From positions 1-40,059 of the forward strand of contig NZ_JAPDPI010000049.1 of NCBI RefSeq assembly GCF_026013615.1: 40,059 bases of DNA, given 5' to 3'. The notes below the pieces were generated by a model, which did not search any database, was not told the origin of the DNA, and saw only the letters and a list, made by a program, of their open reading frames with translations. This document shows positions 32,386-40,059 of this stretch, piece by piece (positions within the stretch are counted from its first letter, which is position 1; each line of letters opens with the position of its first letter). This DNA comes from Plebeiibacterium marinum (lineage in GTDB: Bacteria > Bacteroidota > Bacteroidia > Bacteroidales > Marinilabiliaceae). A program made the position numbers and the translations under genes.

Positions 32386-35118
32386 TTAAATCTCCACACG
32401 GATTTTATCACTCCAAACCACCTCATTATCTTTGAGATAAGATAAAATGTACAAATTTGGTGCAATATTATGTATGTCAATTATGCTGTGTTCCTGGTAA
32501 ATTTCTTTTTGAGCAATACACTTCCCCTTGCAATCAAAAATATTAATTGAATTTTTTGATTTTTCATCAAACGGATAAACCACATTGATTTCGCCCGATG
32601 CAGGATTTGGATATATTTTGTGAGACTTATTATCTGCTATGTGTTTTAATCCTGTTGCATTTGATTTTACTTCCACACTATAAGTCACACTCCCCAGTCC
32701 ATTAACCGAAAGCACATAGCTAACCGCTCCATTGGAGAAGTCCTGCGCCCCCTGAAGGCTCAGCACCACTCCCGGCATAACCTTTAGTTCCGGATCATAA
32801 GCTTCTATATCCGCAGTATTTTCTACCTCAATAGTAATTGTTTTATTATCATGATCAATCTCAACCCCGTTCTCCACAATATCTTCACCGGCTACATCCA
32901 GAACTTCCAGATCATTGCTGGTTGCCCACTCTTCAGCAAGCCGTTCTGCTTCGGCCTTGGTTATTGGAATAACAGTTCCATGTCGGGGATGAAAATTCAT
33001 TGAAACCGCATCATCTATAATCTGAAATTGATACAAATCACTACTTGAAGTAAACTGGTATTCTCCGGAAGTATACAAATCATACATCAATATGTAATCA
33101 TCTTTGTTTATCAATTTGAACACACTGGAACCCTCAACTGCCTCGCTTGTTTGCTGCAGATAATTATCATACAATTCATATCCATAGGTCAGGTTTTCTG
33201 AAATAGCCTTTTTTATTCCGTTCCCACTGCCTTCTGTTTTAAAGAATAGATGATATAATCCATCTTTATGAATAATATCTCCATCTATACAGGATGAATT
33301 TTCGGGATGATAAAACAATTGTTGTGGTGTTCCTTCCAAATCGGTAAAGTCGGCATTTGTATAGGCATAATAAATGATATCCGGACCATCACCATACTTC
33401 ATCGACCAATAAACCATAAACTTGCCAGCTTCCGAATCATATATGGTTTGAGGAGCCCAAACGCGCAACAAATCTTCCTGCCCTTCATATTTTTCCTGGA
33501 TATTGATAACTGTAGACTGCCAGTTAATCAAATCTGTTGACTTCAATAATACCATAGCCCTGTTCGAGCTCCATCCATTAGCAGATACCATGTCTGTAAC
33601 TACCATATAGTAATTGCCATCAGGTCCTCTAAGGATATGAGGATCACGTACACCACCTGTTGAGCTGATTTCTAAAGATGCAATAACAGGCTCATTATTG
33701 TTGAGTGCCCTATAGTTATAACCATCATAACTTACTGCAAACCTAATAGCCTCCTGGGTAATGTAATTACCTGTAAAATAACTAAAAAGATATGCACTAA
33801 AACCTTCATCTTCGGCTACATAAATATCAAAAGAGCGCTGAACAGACTCCCCTCCTTTAGTAATGGAAGCTGTTAAAACAACCAACTTTTTCCCCTCTCC
33901 ATTAGCCGACAGAGCCATTAACTCTCCCTCATCAGACAAATACTCTGCATTACCCGATTCCCAACTAATAGTTGAACCTTCATCCCCTGCTAAGGGCAGG
34001 ATAATATTTGTCCTCAGATTCAATAGGTTTCCTTCTAAAGAAATGGCATCAGCATCCTTTTGTACCGATAACAAATCGCTTACGTATGGCATAACCGCAA
34101 CTATAAAATCTTTAGTGTAGGATGTTTCATTTACAGTTAAAGTTGCTGTTAATGTAACCTCTGCTTCAGCCGCTCCCTGTTCCGGCCGGGTTACTTCGCC
34201 CATATTATTAATGACGCTGGTATTGGATGATGACCACTGGATAGATATCCCATTAGCACCAGACAAAGGCAATTCTATATCGGACACAATATTATCAATA
34301 TCGCCCAAATCTATCCCGGCAGCTTCCTGCTCCAAAAGTTTTGTATACAAAACCTGATTTAAACCTTCTATATCAGCATTTAGCTCTCCTACAGCGGCAG
34401 ATGACAAAGCTTCATTGAATATCTTAAAATCACTTATCAGTGTATTTTTCAGGTATTCATCTCCATTATACAATGATTTTCCAATGTAATTATGAGTTGT
34501 TGCGCCTAATGCCGAAGGTGTAAGGGTAACGCTACCCGACTGAAGCAAAGCTCCATTTACATAAACTGATCCGATGCTTCCCGATTGGGTATAAACCAGC
34601 TGATACCATTCTCCCTTAGGGAATTCTTTTCCCGGATTAATCGTTTGTTCGCCAGTCCAATGTTGCAGTGAAATGGCATACCTGGTGCTTTTTGCATTGA
34701 TAAACAAACCGCCATTCTGTTCTACAGCCATATTTGCAGAATTTCCAAAGGCCCACACAAAATTACCATTATAGCTTATATCAGTATCGGCCTGTATAAA
34801 AATTGAAGTAGAAATAGTAAAATCCTGTAAGGAGGATATAACACTCCCTACTCCTTCGCCCAGATTCAGATAACCATTGGAACCACCCAGGTTCAATACA
34901 TGATAATCACCATATTCATCTACTACTGCACCGTTAACAAAAGTGGCGTTATTCCCACTACCGGTTTCATCAACCACCTGCAACTGACTTTCTGTTAAAT
35001 TATCAAAAGAATAATGTAATTTTATATTGCTCTGAGCTTGTACTACACCCGGCACAACTCCACAAAGAATAACAAAATAGCTTTGGACTATTAATATTTT
35101 TTTTAAAATGTTTCTCAT
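32386..35118 (-). CDS. Secreted LamG-GH43 enzyme with T9SS sorting domain
   Basis: A 910-residue exported protein with a signal peptide of about 28 residues. LamG (32-240) is followed by two Ig-like linker domains (about 265-345 and 350-432). The GH43-type propeller (about 440-770) carries GGVRDPHILR (Asp492), CIDGDII (Asp612) and VEGSSVFKL (Glu662), fitting the three catalytic acids. It closely parallels the first GH43 domain of the lipoprotein at 10169-12331, including SMNFHPRHG and the downstream GAQDFSNGAVSY module. The C-terminus is a T9SS sorting domain with IYPNPASGEINV. Likely an alpha-L-arabinofuranosidase or related exo-enzyme, but activity within GH43 is not determinable. It lies 44 bp after the GH128 gene and 157 bp before the FAS1 gene. 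Confidence 0.87.
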   Translation of the reverse strand: MRNILKKILIVQSYFVILCGVVPGVVQAQSNIKLHYSFDNLTESQLQVVDETGSGNNATFVNGAVVDEYGDYHVLNLGGSNGYLNLGEGVGSVISSLQDFTISTSIFIQADTDISYNGNFVWAFGNSANMAVEQNGGLFINAKSTRYAISLQHWTGEQTINPGKEFPKGEWYQLVYTQSGSIGSVYVNGALLQSGSVTLTPSALGATTHNYIGKSLYNGDEYLKNTLISDFKIFNEALSSAAVGELNADIEGLNQVLYTKLLEQEAAGIDLGDIDNIVSDIELPLSGANGISIQWSSSNTSVINNMGEVTRPEQGAAEAEVTLTATLTVNETSYTKDFIVAVMPYVSDLLSVQKDADAISLEGNLLNLRTNIILPLAGDEGSTISWESGNAEYLSDEGELMALSANGEGKKLVVLTASITKGGESVQRSFDIYVAEDEGFSAYLFSYFTGNYITQEAIRFAVSYDGYNYRALNNNEPVIASLEISSTGGVRDPHILRGPDGNYYMVVTDMVSANGWSSNRAMVLLKSTDLINWQSTVINIQEKYEGQEDLLRVWAPQTIYDSEAGKFMVYWSMKYGDGPDIIYYAYTNADFTDLEGTPQQLFYHPENSSCIDGDIIHKDGLYHLFFKTEGSGNGIKKAISENLTYGYELYDNYLQQTSEAVEGSSVFKLINKDDYILMYDLYTSGEYQFTSSSDLYQFQIIDDAVSMNFHPRHGTVIPITKAEAERLAEEWATSNDLEVLDVAGEDIVENGVEIDHDNKTITIEVENTADIEAYDPELKVMPGVVLSLQGAQDFSNGAVSYVLSVNGLGSVTYSVEVKSNATGLKHIADNKSHKIYPNPASGEINVVYPFDEKSKNSINIFDCKGKCIAQKEIYQEHSIIDIHNIAPNLYILSYLKDNEVVWSDKIRVEI

Positions 35119-35162
35119 TTCTTTATCTCTATTGAATACACTTATCTATCAAACCCTGGCTG

Positions 35163-37898
35163 TTACTTTTTTATAAACTTCTTTGTCTGTCCGTTGGCCC
35201 TTAACAGGTAAATACCTTGTGGCAGTCCATCAACATAAAGTGTACTCTCAACCTCTTTTTCCATCTGTTTTTGGCCGGTTAAATCATATATCGAAACCAA
35301 GGTTGGCTTATCAAACTCAAAAGAAATGACATCCCTAACCGGATTTGGGTAAAACTTTAAATCTTCAGTTTTTGACTTTTCCATACCGGTTATTACCTGT
35401 CCCGGAGCCAAATCCATGATAATCCACCCTAACTGGTCTTCACCAATGGAAACCAATGCACCTGACATTTCTCGCTGTTTTAAAATTTTAATGGAAGATT
35501 CTCCATTTTTATAATACCGTACCGTAGATGCAAAGTCATTTGCCACGGACAATAAGCCCCCAAAATATGCAGGCTGGGTATAGGTTGGATCAATATCTAC
35601 GGCCAAAGGCGTTGATTTTAGTCCTTCATTTTCTTCGGTCATACCAACAGTAATGCGTTTGCCTTCAATAGCACCCTGACCGGGTTCAATGGCCAAAAAA
35701 TTAACACTCTCAGCTAAAACCAGCGAGGTAACAGCTTCTTCACTCCTTAAACACATTTCAAAACCTTCGGTCGTTACATTTCTTACCGCCACTACAGTTG
35801 GAAAGGTGGTACTGTTGCTTGTTTGAGTACAAACCACAACCGGCTGACTGCTAAACTCCTGAGCAAAAGTAACCGTCACCCAATTCCTGTTCACTCCGCT
35901 TACCTGGCCTACTTCACCTTTTAATCCACCAAAATTATAACTGCCTTCAGGAATAGCCATCACAGACAAATCTTCATCTGTTGTTAATGAGGTACCATCT
36001 AAATAAAGCCATGGATTTAACTGAAATTTAAAACCTGTTTTAGTAACACTATTGGCCCTTTTGGTAATTGCCACAACATTATTAAATGCTGGCATACCCA
36101 AAAATACCAAAGGTGTTGTCGTGTATTTTTTCGAAAAAATACATGATGCCCATTCCGAATTGTTCACACTAATATTACCTACCTGAACATTTTCTACCCC
36201 TCCGGTCTGAAAATACGATACTTCTTCTGATGATAAATACTCACCTTGAGATGTCAGCAGGCTAACTTTATAAGTAATCCTTCCATTTATATCCGCATCC
36301 AATGGGTCATTGTATGAAACAACAGAAGCATCATCAGTAGTAAAAATAGTTGCATAATCTCCGTCATTTACCTTTTTCTCAATTTTATACCCACGCGAAA
36401 GTTCTCCATTGCTATCTGTCCATGAAAGCTTGATCATATTTGAAAGCGACAAGTAGCGATATGACAGTTCGGGAGCTGCATAGTTCCAGCCGGGAATCAC
36501 TTCATTGTTGCTATCGTAAGCTATCACTGAATTATTGTTGGCATAGAATTCTCCGGCTTTGGTTAATTCACCATTTAATACAATTGCCCTGGCATCTTCC
36601 ACCCAGTTATATATCGAATATCTTTCGATAAAATGACAGGTGTCAAACATATTTACGATCTCACTAATGTGAGTGAGTGCATAATCCGCATTATTATCTG
36701 TATAAGAAGAAGGGTCATCCGGCCACCATTCACTTGTCCAGTTAGCCCCATAATTCCATTCGGTTACCCAAATGGGCCTACCTGTTCTTTCATGCACATA
36801 TTTTAATGTATTATAATACGACTGTGCCGATGATCCCCAATAGCTGTGGACTGCCACATAGTCTACCCTGTAATTCAACTCATCACATCTATCCATAAAA
36901 TCATACAGCCAGCCAAAATCAGTTGTTGCCGGAGCTCCAATCCTTAAACCCGATTTTAGCATTTCCGGCCATTGAGCCAATGCCTGGTCAACAGTTACCA
37001 CTTGCTCTCCATTGTCATCTTTATGCTGCTCCGGATGATCCGGTTCGTTCAAACCCAGGGAGTGACTAACATTCTCCAGGGCGTTGATCTGTTCCCATGG
37101 CGACCAGTTTAGTTTTGCACGCATGGGCACATACTCCAGATCACTGGTAGATGCCAGTTGAGCCTGCCAGTTATAATACCACGTTGAGCCTGACAATCCG
37201 GCTTCCCATGAGCCTCCACACCAGCCTTTTTTTGTTACCCACTCATACTTTAATACCCTGATAAATGAAGCCGACCCATATAACTCTTCTGGTGCAACAG
37301 CAATTTCCAAATCCGATTCATCAGCAATAAATACACGGCTATATCCTGTTCCATCGCTATTGTTAGCCAAAGTAGCCATGTAGCCTCGTTTTAGCTTAAA
37401 TGACTTAATCGCATTATCCATAATGCTCCCTAAATCATTATAATAAGTGTGCACACCATATCCTACCGATTCTCCGCTAAAGTTCTCTTCTGTAAAAACA
37501 GTTAAGGGCTTCATACCTGAAGAGTGTGGCATCAGCACGGTTCCATGAGCATATTTTGCCACTCTGCCGTTCGTCCCCTCATTAAAAGCTACACCATTAA
37601 CCAATACATCCCCCAGGTAATTATTAATTACATCCGAAGGTTTAATATTATCAAAAAACAGCCATGCATCTTCGTGGTTTAACGATACAGTACTGTTAAC
37701 AAAGGGCTCTGTTTCCGATGTAACATGTAGCTCCAACGGAGAAGAAACAACCCGGTTTTTATCTAAAATACTGACAACAGTCTCTTTTTCTACAGCAGAT
37801 AAACTTACCGGAAGCAATGCCATAATCAAAAACATCATCACCCTTGATTTCTTAAGAGCATCCAGGTAATTTTCCAATTGGCGTAAATTTTTTTCCAT
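35163..37898 (-). CDS. Secreted GH128-type beta-1,3-glucanase with beta/gamma-crystallin and lectin-like domains, T9SS cargo
   Basis: A 911-residue exported protein. The hydrophobic signal core is at about 20-35, and a later Met at 21 could be the start. A beta-rich domain (about 50-130) is followed by a beta/gamma-crystallin domain (about 131-215: VFTEENFSGES, then NAIKSFKLKRGYMATL and YSRVFIADES). The TIM barrel (about 218-460) has LGLNEPDHPEQ (acid/base Glu285), DYVAVHSYW and PIWVTEWNYG (nucleophile Glu380), matching the glycosyl-hydrolase catalytic core PF11790/GH128, whose characterised members cleave beta-1,3-glucan. FN3 and beta-sandwich repeats resembling H-type lectins (about 570-830) follow, then a T9SS sorting domain (FYPNPVRDVISFEF). 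It is the first gene of the minus-strand locus. Confidence 0.83.
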   Translation of the reverse strand: MEKNLRQLENYLDALKKSRVMMFLIMALLPVSLSAVEKETVVSILDKNRVVSSPLELHVTSETEPFVNSTVSLNHEDAWLFFDNIKPSDVINNYLGDVLVNGVAFNEGTNGRVAKYAHGTVLMPHSSGMKPLTVFTEENFSGESVGYGVHTYYNDLGSIMDNAIKSFKLKRGYMATLANNSDGTGYSRVFIADESDLEIAVAPEELYGSASFIRVLKYEWVTKKGWCGGSWEAGLSGSTWYYNWQAQLASTSDLEYVPMRAKLNWSPWEQINALENVSHSLGLNEPDHPEQHKDDNGEQVVTVDQALAQWPEMLKSGLRIGAPATTDFGWLYDFMDRCDELNYRVDYVAVHSYWGSSAQSYYNTLKYVHERTGRPIWVTEWNYGANWTSEWWPDDPSSYTDNNADYALTHISEIVNMFDTCHFIERYSIYNWVEDARAIVLNGELTKAGEFYANNNSVIAYDSNNEVIPGWNYAAPELSYRYLSLSNMIKLSWTDSNGELSRGYKIEKKVNDGDYATIFTTDDASVVSYNDPLDADINGRITYKVSLLTSQGEYLSSEEVSYFQTGGVENVQVGNISVNNSEWASCIFSKKYTTTPLVFLGMPAFNNVVAITKRANSVTKTGFKFQLNPWLYLDGTSLTTDEDLSVMAIPEGSYNFGGLKGEVGQVSGVNRNWVTVTFAQEFSSQPVVVCTQTSNSTTFPTVVAVRNVTTEGFEMCLRSEEAVTSLVLAESVNFLAIEPGQGAIEGKRITVGMTEENEGLKSTPLAVDIDPTYTQPAYFGGLLSVANDFASTVRYYKNGESSIKILKQREMSGALVSIGEDQLGWIIMDLAPGQVITGMEKSKTEDLKFYPNPVRDVISFEFDKPTLVSIYDLTGQKQMEKEVESTLYVDGLPQGIYLLRANGQTKKFIKK

Positions 37899-38226
37899 AT
37901 TTATTTAGTTACTATTTATATAAAATCTTTAATGCATAATCAACATGGTAAAAGTACCCCTGATACAATTAATCTTTTTTTAACAAATCAAAATATACTA
38001 TAACAAATCCGACAATCTTATTTACTTTCTGCAAGAAAACTCATGACTCCAGCGCTCACCCCTTTGATTCCTCCCGTTTGATCGGGAGGACTGTGTGAAA
38101 ACAGATAAATATTTTTGAGAAACTATCAATTTAAAAACACAACTCCTTCTTGTACACCCTTATACTGCCTGACTACCTTTTATACACAAATATCATATGG
38201 CGTCAAATTATATATCAGACTTTAAA
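37899..38226. other. Non-coding region upstream of the GH128 gene
   Basis: No gene is visible. The first 140 bases are AT-rich and probably contain the promoter for the minus-strand locus, but no full TAnnTTTG match was found. A perfect hairpin CCTCCCG/CGGGAGG with a six-base loop lies at 38070-38089. Confidence 0.45.
38070..38089. repeat. Small perfect hairpin
   Basis: CCTCCCG and CGGGAGG are separated by TTTGAT: a 7-bp GC-rich stem and a six-base loop. The same 7-6-7 geometry recurs at 38394-38413 with an unrelated stem. No T-tract follows, so termination is unlikely. Confidence 0.5.
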
Positions 38227-38305
38227 AGGCTGAAGGCCTTATACATCGCAACTTGGGGCATCGCCCCAAGATTTTAAGCATAATGTCCATTCAGGCTGTA
38301 AGTCT
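38227..38305. repeat. Intact three-hairpin REP-like element (copy 1)
   Basis: A 79-bp element with three hairpins. AGGCTGAAGGCCT (38227-38239) has a 5-bp stem with one G-T pair and a GAA loop. CTTGGGGCATCGCCCCAAG (38252-38270) has an 8-bp stem and an ATC loop. AGGCTGTAAGTCT (38293-38305) has a 5-bp stem with one G-T pair and a GTA loop. Spacers are 12 and 22 nt. The first and last hairpins with their flanks form an imperfect direct repeat (16 of 20 identical). An 11-bp inverted repeat, AAAAGGCTGAA at 38224-38234 and its complement at 38332-38342, brackets the element. Function unknown; a transposon-mobilised REP family or structured RNA are options. Confidence 0.6.
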
Positions 38306-38393
38306 GATACATTAACCATAAATTTCAAACTTTCAGCCTTTTGATACAATAACCTCATACCATAAAGATGTGTATAAAGGGCAGATACTGCAT

Positions 38394-38413
38394 GAAGGGG
38401 ACTTTACCCCTTC
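38394..38413. repeat. Small perfect hairpin
   Basis: GAAGGGG and CCCCTTC pair around the loop ACTTTA. It lies between the two REP-like elements and has the same 7-6-7 geometry as the hairpin at 38070-38089. Confidence 0.5.
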
Positions 38414-38549
38414 CCGTAACCAAAACGACATGAGAACTATCAAAATCTTAGTGTGAAATCCTCAAGTGTTCAAAAAGAAATTTTTGTTATGATAGTAGCA
38501 GAACAGACTGGAATTAAATCGTGCTGGAAGCACAATTCAACCTAGCCCC

Positions 38550-38559
38550 AGGTATCACC
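38550..38559. repeat. Left target-site duplication of the IS
   Basis: AGGTATCACC, identical to 39965-39974. It covers the loop and adjacent stem bases of the interrupted palindrome. Confidence 0.85.
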
Positions 38560-38668
38560 CAATGTCATTAAGTTAGTGTGTAAGATACTGAAATACAATA
38601 TTATGAGTTTGTTATCTGAAATATTTTCACTATCTTAGTTGGGTCAAATAATTAAAAAACAACCTGTT

Positions 38669-38831
38669 ATGAAAGCTAGCGCTCAAACCTAAAAATCGTG
38701 CCAAACTATTAGAATTCATCCTAAATCTCATAGAAAACAACGACTTTTGTTCTAAGCATAAGACAGATAAAAAGCACTTTACCAGAGATCGAATATGGAA
38801 TTTCAAGACGACCTTCCTATTTATTTGTAAT
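38669..38831 (+). pseudogene. Out-of-frame N-terminal part of the IS transposase
   Basis: An ATG at 38669 opens a frame that stops at a TAA after seven codons (MKASAQT). From 38673 the frame of the downstream transposase is open without interruption and encodes a basic, helical stretch (KPKNRAKLLEFILNLIENND, later HFTRDRIWNFKTTFLF) running straight into the annotated Met at 38832. This 5' frame has no ATG, GTG or TTG. One base gained or lost near 38690 would join the ATG to the rest and give a product of about 424 residues, normal for IS4. A frameshift mutation is the simplest reading; programmed +1 frameshifting is an alternative. Confidence 0.65.
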
Positions 38832-39944
38832 ATGCTAAACAAACGTTCTCAATCTGAAATTGACAACTTCTTTTCAAAATTATATAATGCTCCAGAAGAA
38901 ATAAGGCAAGCAACCACCTCTTCATTAACACAATGCAGAGCAAAGCTAAGCTTTACAGCCTTTAAAGATGCAATGGAGCAACTTACCCAGTTCTTTTATA
39001 AAAACTATAGCTTTAAACAATATTATGGATGTAGGCTCATTGCCATTGATGGATCTGTATATACACTCCCTCGTACCGAAGAAACAATAAAGACGTTTGG
39101 GGAGAATGTATTGTCTGACAGTAAAAAATGGATCAAAGCACAAGTTTCATTCGCAGCAGATGTTTTAAACAATGTTTGTGTAAATGCTGTGATAGGAGCA
39201 TATAAAGAATCTGAAGAAACACAAGCGAAGGTTCTTTTGGAGTCACTTGGCAACAATAATCTTCTATTATTTGATCGTGGATATTTTAGTCGTTCTTTTT
39301 TAAAACAGGTAGCAGAATCCGGCAATCAATTTTGTTTTCGCTTACAAAGAAATGCATGTAGAGAAGTTGTGAAATTTATAAAAGCAAACCACAATGATTG
39401 CTTTGAATACATTCAAGTTGGAAATGAGCAAATAAAGGTGCGGCTAACAAAAGTTTTACTTGATACTGGAGAAATAGAGTATTTAATGACATCGCCTTTT
39501 GACAAAACATTTAGTCGTAAAAAACTTAAGGCTCTCTATCATATGCGATGGGGAGTTGAGGAACAATACAAGGATATGAAATATGCGATATGTATAGAAA
39601 ACTTTATTGGTAAAAGCCCCAATGCAATAAAGCAAGAATTTTTTGCCAATATACTAACCTACAATCTTTCAATGATGCTATGCAAATCTGCGATTGATCT
39701 CAGATCAAACAAAAAGAAGAAAAAAAGAAAGTATAAAACAAATAAGCGTGCATTATTGGCGAAAGTTAAACAGTGCTTTGTGAGGTTATTTTTTGAAATT
39801 GAGAAATGCATGACATTGCTTGATGACATTATAAATACGGTTTCTAAAGAGTCGATTCCAATACGAAAAGGCAGAAAATCACCACGTAGCAAAACACACA
39901 AAATCAGAATTAAGCCACATAGAGCCTATGTTTCAGTTCTTTAA
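38832..39944 (+). CDS. IS4-family DDE transposase (probably N-terminally truncated)
   Basis: A 370-residue product from the first available in-frame ATG. The catalytic triad is visible: Asp73 in IAIDGS, Asp148 in LLLFDRGYFS and Glu243 in YHMRWGVEEQYKDMK, which gives the IS4 signature Y236-x2-R239-x3-E243-x6-K250. The C-terminus is strongly basic (NKKKKKRKYKTNKR, HKIRIKPHRAYVSVL). About 50 further N-terminal residues are encoded upstream in the same frame without a start codon, so the natural protein was longer and this copy may be inactive, because IS4 N-termini usually contact the transposon ends. Confidence 0.88.
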   Translation: MLNKRSQSEIDNFFSKLYNAPEEIRQATTSSLTQCRAKLSFTAFKDAMEQLTQFFYKNYSFKQYYGCRLIAIDGSVYTLPRTEETIKTFGENVLSDSKKWIKAQVSFAADVLNNVCVNAVIGAYKESEETQAKVLLESLGNNNLLLFDRGYFSRSFLKQVAESGNQFCFRLQRNACREVVKFIKANHNDCFEYIQVGNEQIKVRLTKVLLDTGEIEYLMTSPFDKTFSRKKLKALYHMRWGVEEQYKDMKYAICIENFIGKSPNAIKQEFFANILTYNLSMMLCKSAIDLRSNKKKKKRKYKTNKRALLAKVKQCFVRLFFEIEKCMTLLDDIINTVSKESIPIRKGRKSPRSKTHKIRIKPHRAYVSVL

Positions 39945-39964
39945 TCCTTAACTTAATGACATTG

Positions 39965-39974
39965 AGGTATCACC
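39965..39974. repeat. Right target-site duplication of the IS
   Basis: AGGTATCACC, an exact copy of 38550-38559. Confidence 0.85.
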
Positions 39975-40059
39975 TGGGGTGTATTGGATATGTAAATCAG
40001 CGTCCTGTAAGGACAGGTTAATAATTAATATCCATAAATTCTCTTCATTATACTCAATG

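Follow-up and report, generated by a model that had tools for sequence, protein, structure and literature searches.

The right-hand end of contig NZ_JAPDPI010000049.1 of Plebeiibacterium marinum (assembly GCF_026013615.1; positions 1 to 40,059 of the forward strand, analysed as one stretch of 40,059 nt and called the window) carries two copies of a repeat made of three short hairpins. We conclude that these repeats are probably the arms, and the gene-less derivatives, of a transposon with symmetric inverted ends that encodes a Y1 transposase (TnpA) of subclass 1.2. The evidence, all of it direct observation, is the anatomy of the unit in this genome, its recurrence in other genomes, covariation of the paired bases, a match between arm subfamily and tnpA lineage, and a stop of homology at the outer hairpins of two units from different species (L001 and L038).

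Both copies in the window have the layout 13-12-19-22-13 nt, with stems of 5, 8 and 5 bp that include some G-T pairs; the loops, read outer, central and outer, are GAA, ATC and GTA in copy 1 and GGA, ATC and GTA in copy 2. A first-pass annotation of the window had claimed that the layout is identical and that the stem bases differ between the copies with pairing retained, in part by G-T pairs; each claim was confirmed. A scan for exactly this layout (any triloop, G-T allowed) over both strands of the window found copy 1 alone; with the insertion that splits copy 2 removed, the + strand, which was the strand rescanned, yielded copies 1 and 2 and nothing else. The parts are as follows.

38227..38305, + strand: copy 1 arm, subfamily A, with hairpins at 38227-38239, 38252-38270 and 38293-38305
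38306..38326, strand not applicable: 21-nt spacer of a convergent doublet, of the length found in 9 doublets of the genus (sequence, hairpin scan and doublet spacing)
38327..38339, - strand: remnant inner hairpin of the inverted partner arm, beyond which the doublet is truncated (hairpin scan)
38419..38520, strand not applicable: outer flank of copy 2, common to another B-type copy (comparison with G000:C107, G000 being the window's genome)
38521..38559, + strand: first part of copy 2, subfamily B, namely the outer hairpin (38521-38533) and the left half of the central hairpin
39975..40014, + strand: second part of copy 2, namely the right half of the central hairpin and the inner hairpin (40002-40014)
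40032..40058, - strand: remnant of a Y1 transposase C-terminus, IEYNEENLW, beside copy 2

Copy 1 looks like a truncated doublet, since an inverted inner hairpin (38327-38339) follows it after 21 nt. For copy 2, positions 38419-38559 are 90.8% identical to the B-type copy G000:C107, and the IEYNEENLW codons, which match the end of TnpA, adjoin its inner hairpin; this match (expectation value, E, 0.035) is weak alone, but lies in the expected place, and the contig ends at 40059, directly after it.

Further copies, which the first-pass annotation had proposed to seek, were found with a covariance model (R1) for which the two window copies were the sole input. Run over the assembly (5.62 Mb, 187 contigs) with a limit of E<=1, R1 returned 32 rows. 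A stricter limit of E<=1e-3 leaves 25; copy 2 accounts for two of the 32, one per half, and the five lowest-ranked rows, with E above 0.01, are weak. Inspection by eye sorts the copies into subfamily A, with AGGCTGAAAGCCT ... AGGCTGTAAGTCT (copy 1), and subfamily B, with GTGCTGAAAGCAC ... GTCCTGTARGGAC (copy 2). A broader model from 42 elements (R2) gave 30 rows in this genome at E<=1e-4, with 115 candidates scored.

Covariation was assessed on a plain MAFFT alignment (A4) of 42 elements, taken from 59 hits at E<=1e-4; partial and duplicate hits, some lower hits, copy 2 and the L001 arms with their long loops were excluded. RNAalifold returned for A4 exactly the three-hairpin structure with the same 18 pairs, and double changes were present in 16 of the 18. 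Over the 41 distinct rows, 98.6% of cells were paired; changes on both sides of a pair numbered 173, against a mean of 45.7 in shuffles, which leave relatedness among the rows in place. The covariation score was 0.688, compared with 0.230 after shuffling and at most 0.180 with the partner slid. When all 59 hits were aligned by fitting to R1, 98.9% of cells were paired, with 235 both-side changes against 62.4. One-sided wobble was G-T in 27 cells and A-C in 3, several of the 27 being common within one subfamily. Selection for folding, as first proposed from two copies, is thus supported by further copies and by covariation of their pairs; checks for a lack of further copies, a lack of covariation and variable spacing did not refute that reading.

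A Y1 transposase, which it had also been proposed to look for in the same genome, was found between inverted B-type arms. The locus (L001) holds one complete Y1 gene, which encodes a protein of 151 aa (P0001) and lies between two B-type arms that face it. P0001 matches Pfam Y1_Tnp; it scores 35.6 bits against the IS200 model NF033573, below the cut-off of 55, and has no match to NF047646 (REP_Tyr_transpos) at E<=0.001. Subclass 1.2, as described by Quentin et al. 2018 (PMC6006769), has the signatures Y---Q--HH and DH[IV]H and a median length of 148 aa, occurs in Bacteroidetes, is close to IS200 transposases, and is generally without IS200-type terminal structures. Judged by its motifs, P0001 fits this subclass: its Y motif, YIKKQERHH, carries the Y---Q--HH signature and its length is close to the median, except that M replaces I/V in its HuH motif, DHMH. 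H56, H58, Y116 and Q120 are invariant in 12 relatives.

An AlphaFold2 model of the close relative encoded at L038 (predicted local distance difference test, pLDDT, 85.6) has a predicted HuH/Y1 fold; its best Foldseek matches were ISHp608 and ISDra2 TnpA, with template-modelling (TM) scores of about 0.6 and many of them bound to end DNA, and the structure 4er8, of a REP-associated tyrosine transposase (RAYT; REP, repetitive extragenic palindrome), stood at rank 30. Searched by sequence, the solved structures gave no match to P0001 at E<=0.01, whereas the fold search did match. A phage search gave no match; among plasmids two records matched, of which one bears an IS200/IS605 tnpA annotation and the other is unannotated. 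Elsewhere in the genome, contig C22 carries a REP_Tyr_transpos (RAYT) gene (L004) with its own, different flanking hairpins.

We examined whether relatives of tnpA in other genomes are flanked by such arms. R1 was run on 43 loci, 41 of them distinct as two places were doubly named; an inward arm was present on each side of tnpA at E<=1e-3 in nine of the 41 (L038, L040, L041, L042, L044, L046, L047, L055 and L081, of which L040, L042 and L044 come from one genus). The Y---Q--HH motif was present in 102 of 108 fetched loci, and the flanks of these 102 subclass-1.2 loci were scanned for perfect triloop hairpins of at least 5 bp, read on the strand that runs into the gene, so that G-N-A denotes the inward and its reverse complement, T-N-C, the outward sense. 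Within 100 nt of the gene there were 237 triloop hairpins, including 126 G-N-A and 6 T-N-C; the next 100 nt gave 42 and 27. The excess of inward hairpins is thus confined to the 200 nt nearest tnpA. The 200-nt flanks held 187 G-N-A hairpins (in a set that includes some overlong slices) against a mean of 3.95 and a maximum of 8 after dinucleotide shuffling. With seven loci that had under 100 nt on a side removed, 95 P0001-like loci remained, and within 250 nt a G-N-A hairpin was found on at least one side in 76 and on both sides in 39. A second loop class, A-N-C, which is that of the central hairpin, numbered 36 against 2 G-N-T within 100 nt.

In 27 of the 41 loci that had G-N-A hairpins on both sides within 300 nt the five-base stem was identical on the two sides, as against 12% with shuffled partners; this sharing could come in part from recent common descent of the two arms rather than from recognition. 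The base before the hairpin foot was A in 119 of 184 G-N-A hairpins, with A/T-rich sequence further out, and no GTRG consensus, such as the GT[AG]G foot of REPs, was found across the 184. Inverted hairpin flanks are also present at the Akkermansia-type (Verrucomicrobiota) relatives of the gene, L048-L050, where by eye the central hairpin is larger and the inner hairpins are CCCGTGAAACGGG-like.

The arms also occur as pairs without a gene, and the pairs have fixed geometry. Among the 150 R2 hits listed, best first, for 41 genomes, 25 neighbouring pairs lay within 150 nt; 23 of them were convergent, as in REPINs, one was divergent and one had both arms in the same sense. The gap was exactly 21 nt in 9 pairs (G000, G007 and G008), 29-31 nt in 11 pairs (G016 and G040), 45 in two pairs (G011), and 125 nt in one G000 pair with a tnpA remnant. 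The boundaries of the complete unit were read from the cross-species comparison of L001 with L038: the two units are 77.2% identical over 715 nt, their homology begins 3 nt beyond the outer left hairpin and reaches the foot of the outer right one, and the alignment stops there although more than 1.3 kb of sequence was available on each side. The doublet on contig C33 aligns with one G008 doublet exactly from end to end (query 602-780) and with another over 8 nt more (594-780); its flanks outside repeats had no match in the other genomes of the genus (9 searched).

Arm subfamily follows tnpA lineage. Two tnpA genes are present in G007, a genome listed under the window genome's genus: L038/L053, flanked by B-type arms, and L081, flanked by A-type ones. 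In G000 the A-flanked pieces of tnpA, on C170 and C166, share 90% and 83% identity with L081 and 41% with P0001; both are cut by contig ends, and the C166 piece has an in-frame stop. Across the phylum the enzyme was present at E<=1e-15 in 118 of 296 genomes and the element, by R2, in 32 of 296, where at most 15 candidates were scored per genome and negatives are uncertain; the enzyme was found in 29 of the 32 element-positive genomes and in 89 of the 264 others (Fisher p 4e-10, uncorrected for relatedness). Of the genomes of 41 relatives, 25 were element-positive and 16 element-negative; an enzyme match at E<=1e-3 was seen in 22 of the former and 6 of the latter (p 0.0014, likewise uncorrected). 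Within the genus, G007 and G008 gave 39 and 44 rows, and G001 and G003, both without an enzyme match, gave 0 and 1.

The element that interrupts copy 2 belongs to the IS4 family and has these parts.

38550..38559, strand not applicable: left copy of the target-site duplication AGGTATCACC (direct-repeat reading)
38560..38575, + strand: left terminal inverted repeat CAATGTCATTAAGTTA of the IS4-family element
38832..39944, + strand: IS4-family transposase, 370 aa (NF033592 match)
39949..39964, - strand: right terminal inverted repeat of the IS4-family element
39965..39974, strand not applicable: right copy of the target-site duplication AGGTATCACC

The family assignment agrees with the transposase model (161.9 bits against NF033592, cut-off 115), the inverted repeats and the 10-bp target duplication, and the insertion point is the central hairpin of copy 2.

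Arms of the three-hairpin type also lie inside other elements. A GCATAGCCGTCAGGCTAA pattern (at most 2 mismatches) occurs at 15 places in G000, and these places flank seven element-bearing units, on C33, C55, C120, C134, C143, C153 and C175. Elements that have CATAGCCGTCAGGCTAA ends and no gene harbour doublets or copies of the arm, e.g., G000:C33:108462-108713 (L012, L223). The C33 unit interrupts a host hairpin repeat, has CATAGCC ends and is bordered by a 10-bp duplication, CCCTAAAGGG; these ends and this duplication point to another transposase for that insertion. Of 20 stretches compared at the C33 point, 14 had the host repeat uninterrupted, 2 were filled (L218 and L221), 2 differed inside and 2 were unmatched. 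The host repeat itself is a many-copy landing site (L203-L215 and L222), by eye roughly 150-200 bp, with CTTGCAAGAAAACT-like ends and an internal CCCCTRAAGGGG hairpin, and one BLAST piece of it lies at 38026-38061 of the window. L235 was considered as an empty CATAGCC element; it retains part of a hairpin and is more likely a deletion derivative.

In other genomes, G007 doublets have similar ends, most clearly L240 with the duplication GCCGGTAGGC; the G016 doublet L252 lies within ends like those of the window's IS4-family element and is flanked on each side by the 12-nt ATCCGGCGAACC, and a further flanking repeat is common to six more G016 doublets. By eye, the G008 doublets L244 and L245 have none of these ends. 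Duplications of 10-12 bp were read in C33, L240 and L252. The IS4-family element (38560-39964) sits in the palindromic centre of an arm, and the 10-bp duplications at C33 and L240 also lie in palindromes; these three cases suggest that such elements prefer hairpin targets.

One could suppose from this nesting that the doublets are mainly cargo of inverted-repeat elements with CATAGCCGTCAGGCTAA or CAATGTCATTAAGTTA ends and that the Y1 enzyme is inactive or irrelevant today. The CATAGCC ends beside seven units in G000 and around G007 doublets, with the 10-bp duplications of C33 and L240, and the IS4-type ends and 12-nt repeat of L252 are what such carriage would leave, whereas by eye neither the G008 doublets L244 and L245 nor the tnpA unit L001 has these ends, the match between the C33 doublet and one G008 doublet spans the doublet exactly, and the stems co-vary and match the local tnpA. 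We regard this explanation as unlikely; both independent movement and carriage as cargo appear to have spread the doublets.

The first-pass annotation had named two alternatives, repeats mobilised in the manner of REPs by a RAYT, and a structured RNA. The mobilised-repeat part of the first holds, given the Y1 gene with inverted arms and the REPIN-like doublets; by the models applied, however, the enzyme does not classify as a RAYT. That the copies are instead REPs of a canonical RAYT encoded elsewhere in the genome is the least probable of the explanations considered, and we give it next to no weight: RAYT genes are present here and in most relatives (NF047646 matched in 35 of 41 relative genomes, over the cut-off in 16 of 41), but the elements in G000 flank subclass-1.2 genes, and 23 RAYT control loci (of 30 fetched, those that matched the L004 protein and were without Y---Q--HH) had 0 inward G-N-A and 13 T-N-C hairpins within 100 nt and, within 250 nt, G-N-A on at least one side in 3 of 23 and on both sides in 1 of 23. 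A structured RNA or transcription signal (terminator or attenuator) under RNA selection is also not favoured and seems highly improbable. The conserved, covarying three-hairpin fold would be expected of it, and the one-strand wobble tolerance (G-T 27, A-C 3) fits RNA and single-stranded DNA equally; against it, Rfam gave 0 matches in the window at the gathering score, the copies lie in mobile contexts, and the arms are opposite across tnpA and in doublets, so that a single transcript would have one of them in the wrong sense.

The Y1 subclass 1.2 transposon, the preferred reading, would work as follows. A three-hairpin arm, tnpA and an inverted second copy of that arm would make up the mobile unit, which in the B type measures about 700 nt. 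By analogy with its IS608 and ISDra2 relatives, TnpA may bind the G-N-A-loop hairpins on single-stranded DNA, cut near the arm hairpins, and excise or paste the unit. G-N-A loops give unusually stable DNA mini-hairpins. The 179-nt convergent doublets without a gene would be non-autonomous, REPIN-like derivatives, presumably moved in trans. Copy 1 would then be a truncated subfamily A doublet, and copy 2 the downstream arm of a B-type unit, with a tnpA remnant before the contig end and an IS4-family element in its central hairpin.

Several observations weigh against this reading or narrow it. Another kind of transposition accounts for some of the spread, since seven units of G000 and doublets of G007 and G016 lie inside inverted-repeat elements. 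Neither a transposition event nor a clean empty site for a bare doublet was seen. Folded alone as DNA, copy 1 kept the central hairpin and its outer parts preferred pairing with each other, so that its three-hairpin form rests on comparison; the other four of the five arms folded gave three hairpins. The element was present without an enzyme match in G050, G080 and G144 of the phylum set and in G003, G015 and G022 of the relatives. From 200 to 500 nt from the gene the outward sense was the commoner (G-N-A 14, 17 and 13 against T-N-C 28, 24 and 16 per 100 nt; 6 and 5 in the next), of which neighbouring doublets or arrays could be the cause. For 20 further, more divergent subclass-1.2 loci, G-N-A hairpins numbered 7 against 0 within 100 nt and the rule held in 5 of 20, on both sides in 0 of 20; several of these loci (L265-L289) have other hairpins instead, with TTTA, TTCA or TGAA loops or shorter GTA stems, and the G-N-A form may thus be clade-specific. 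Nor was the control of IS200 subclass-1.1-like genes empty (12 loci, seven from one genome): 4 G-N-A against 1 within 100 nt, and at least one side in 4 of 11, both in 0 of 11.

Beyond the unit itself, we lean somewhat towards a wider proposal, in which subclass 1.2 would form a family of its own among single-strand transposons, its composite ends being symmetric and inverted. TnpA would read a G-N-A mini-hairpin whose loop and 5-bp length are constant and whose stem serves as a locus-specific key, and each of the paralogous tnpA genes of one genome would maintain its own population of REPIN-like doublets, with these doublets also riding in unrelated inverted-repeat transposons.

Upstream of the repeats, two large neighbouring open reading frames, 32386-35118 and 35163-37898 (together spanning 32386-37898), have glycoside hydrolase domains and Por_Secre_tail matches.

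Among known systems, IS200/IS605 elements (IS608, ISDra2) have the HuH/Y1 fold, hairpins near the ends and a short single-gene unit in common with the present one; here, however, the arms are mutually inverted copies, with three hairpins each in the window's kin, and the protein falls below the IS200 equivalog cut-off. The REP/REPIN-RAYT system (REPtron) likewise has a gene flanked by repeats that are also dispersed as convergent doublets, and differs in that the present unit is a 79-nt three-hairpin arm with a G-N-A triloop and no GTAG foot, the enzyme is of another subclass, and the L001/L038 pair suggests movement of the whole unit. Palindrome-associated transposable elements (PATEs) are small gene-less palindromic derivatives tied to IS200/IS605, and the likeness is one of general description. 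GTAG and CGTC repeats are described in PMC3733652; those of the CGTC kind have stems of 8-9 bp and loops of 4-5 nt, and lack a transposase. Among the best-ranked papers listed, our literature search recognised no account of these arms; ISfinder lay outside its scope, and a named insertion sequence may exist there. With TnpA_Y1 subclass 1.2, as described in PMC6006769, P0001 and its kin agree in Y---Q--HH, a length of about 150 aa, occurrence in Bacteroidetes and nearness to IS200 transposases; unlike that description, inward G-N-A hairpins were found here on at least one side in 76 and on both sides in 39 of 95 P0001-like loci.

DNA partners are thus proposed for an enzyme subclass that has matches at E<=1e-15 in 118 of the 296 genomes sampled from the phylum and had hitherto been described as generally without them. 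The constant loop, variable stem and inverted arms amount to a concrete recognition rule that is testable in vitro; they suggest where some of the phylum's hairpin repeats may have come from, and would place a REPIN-like system beside an enzyme that is not a RAYT.
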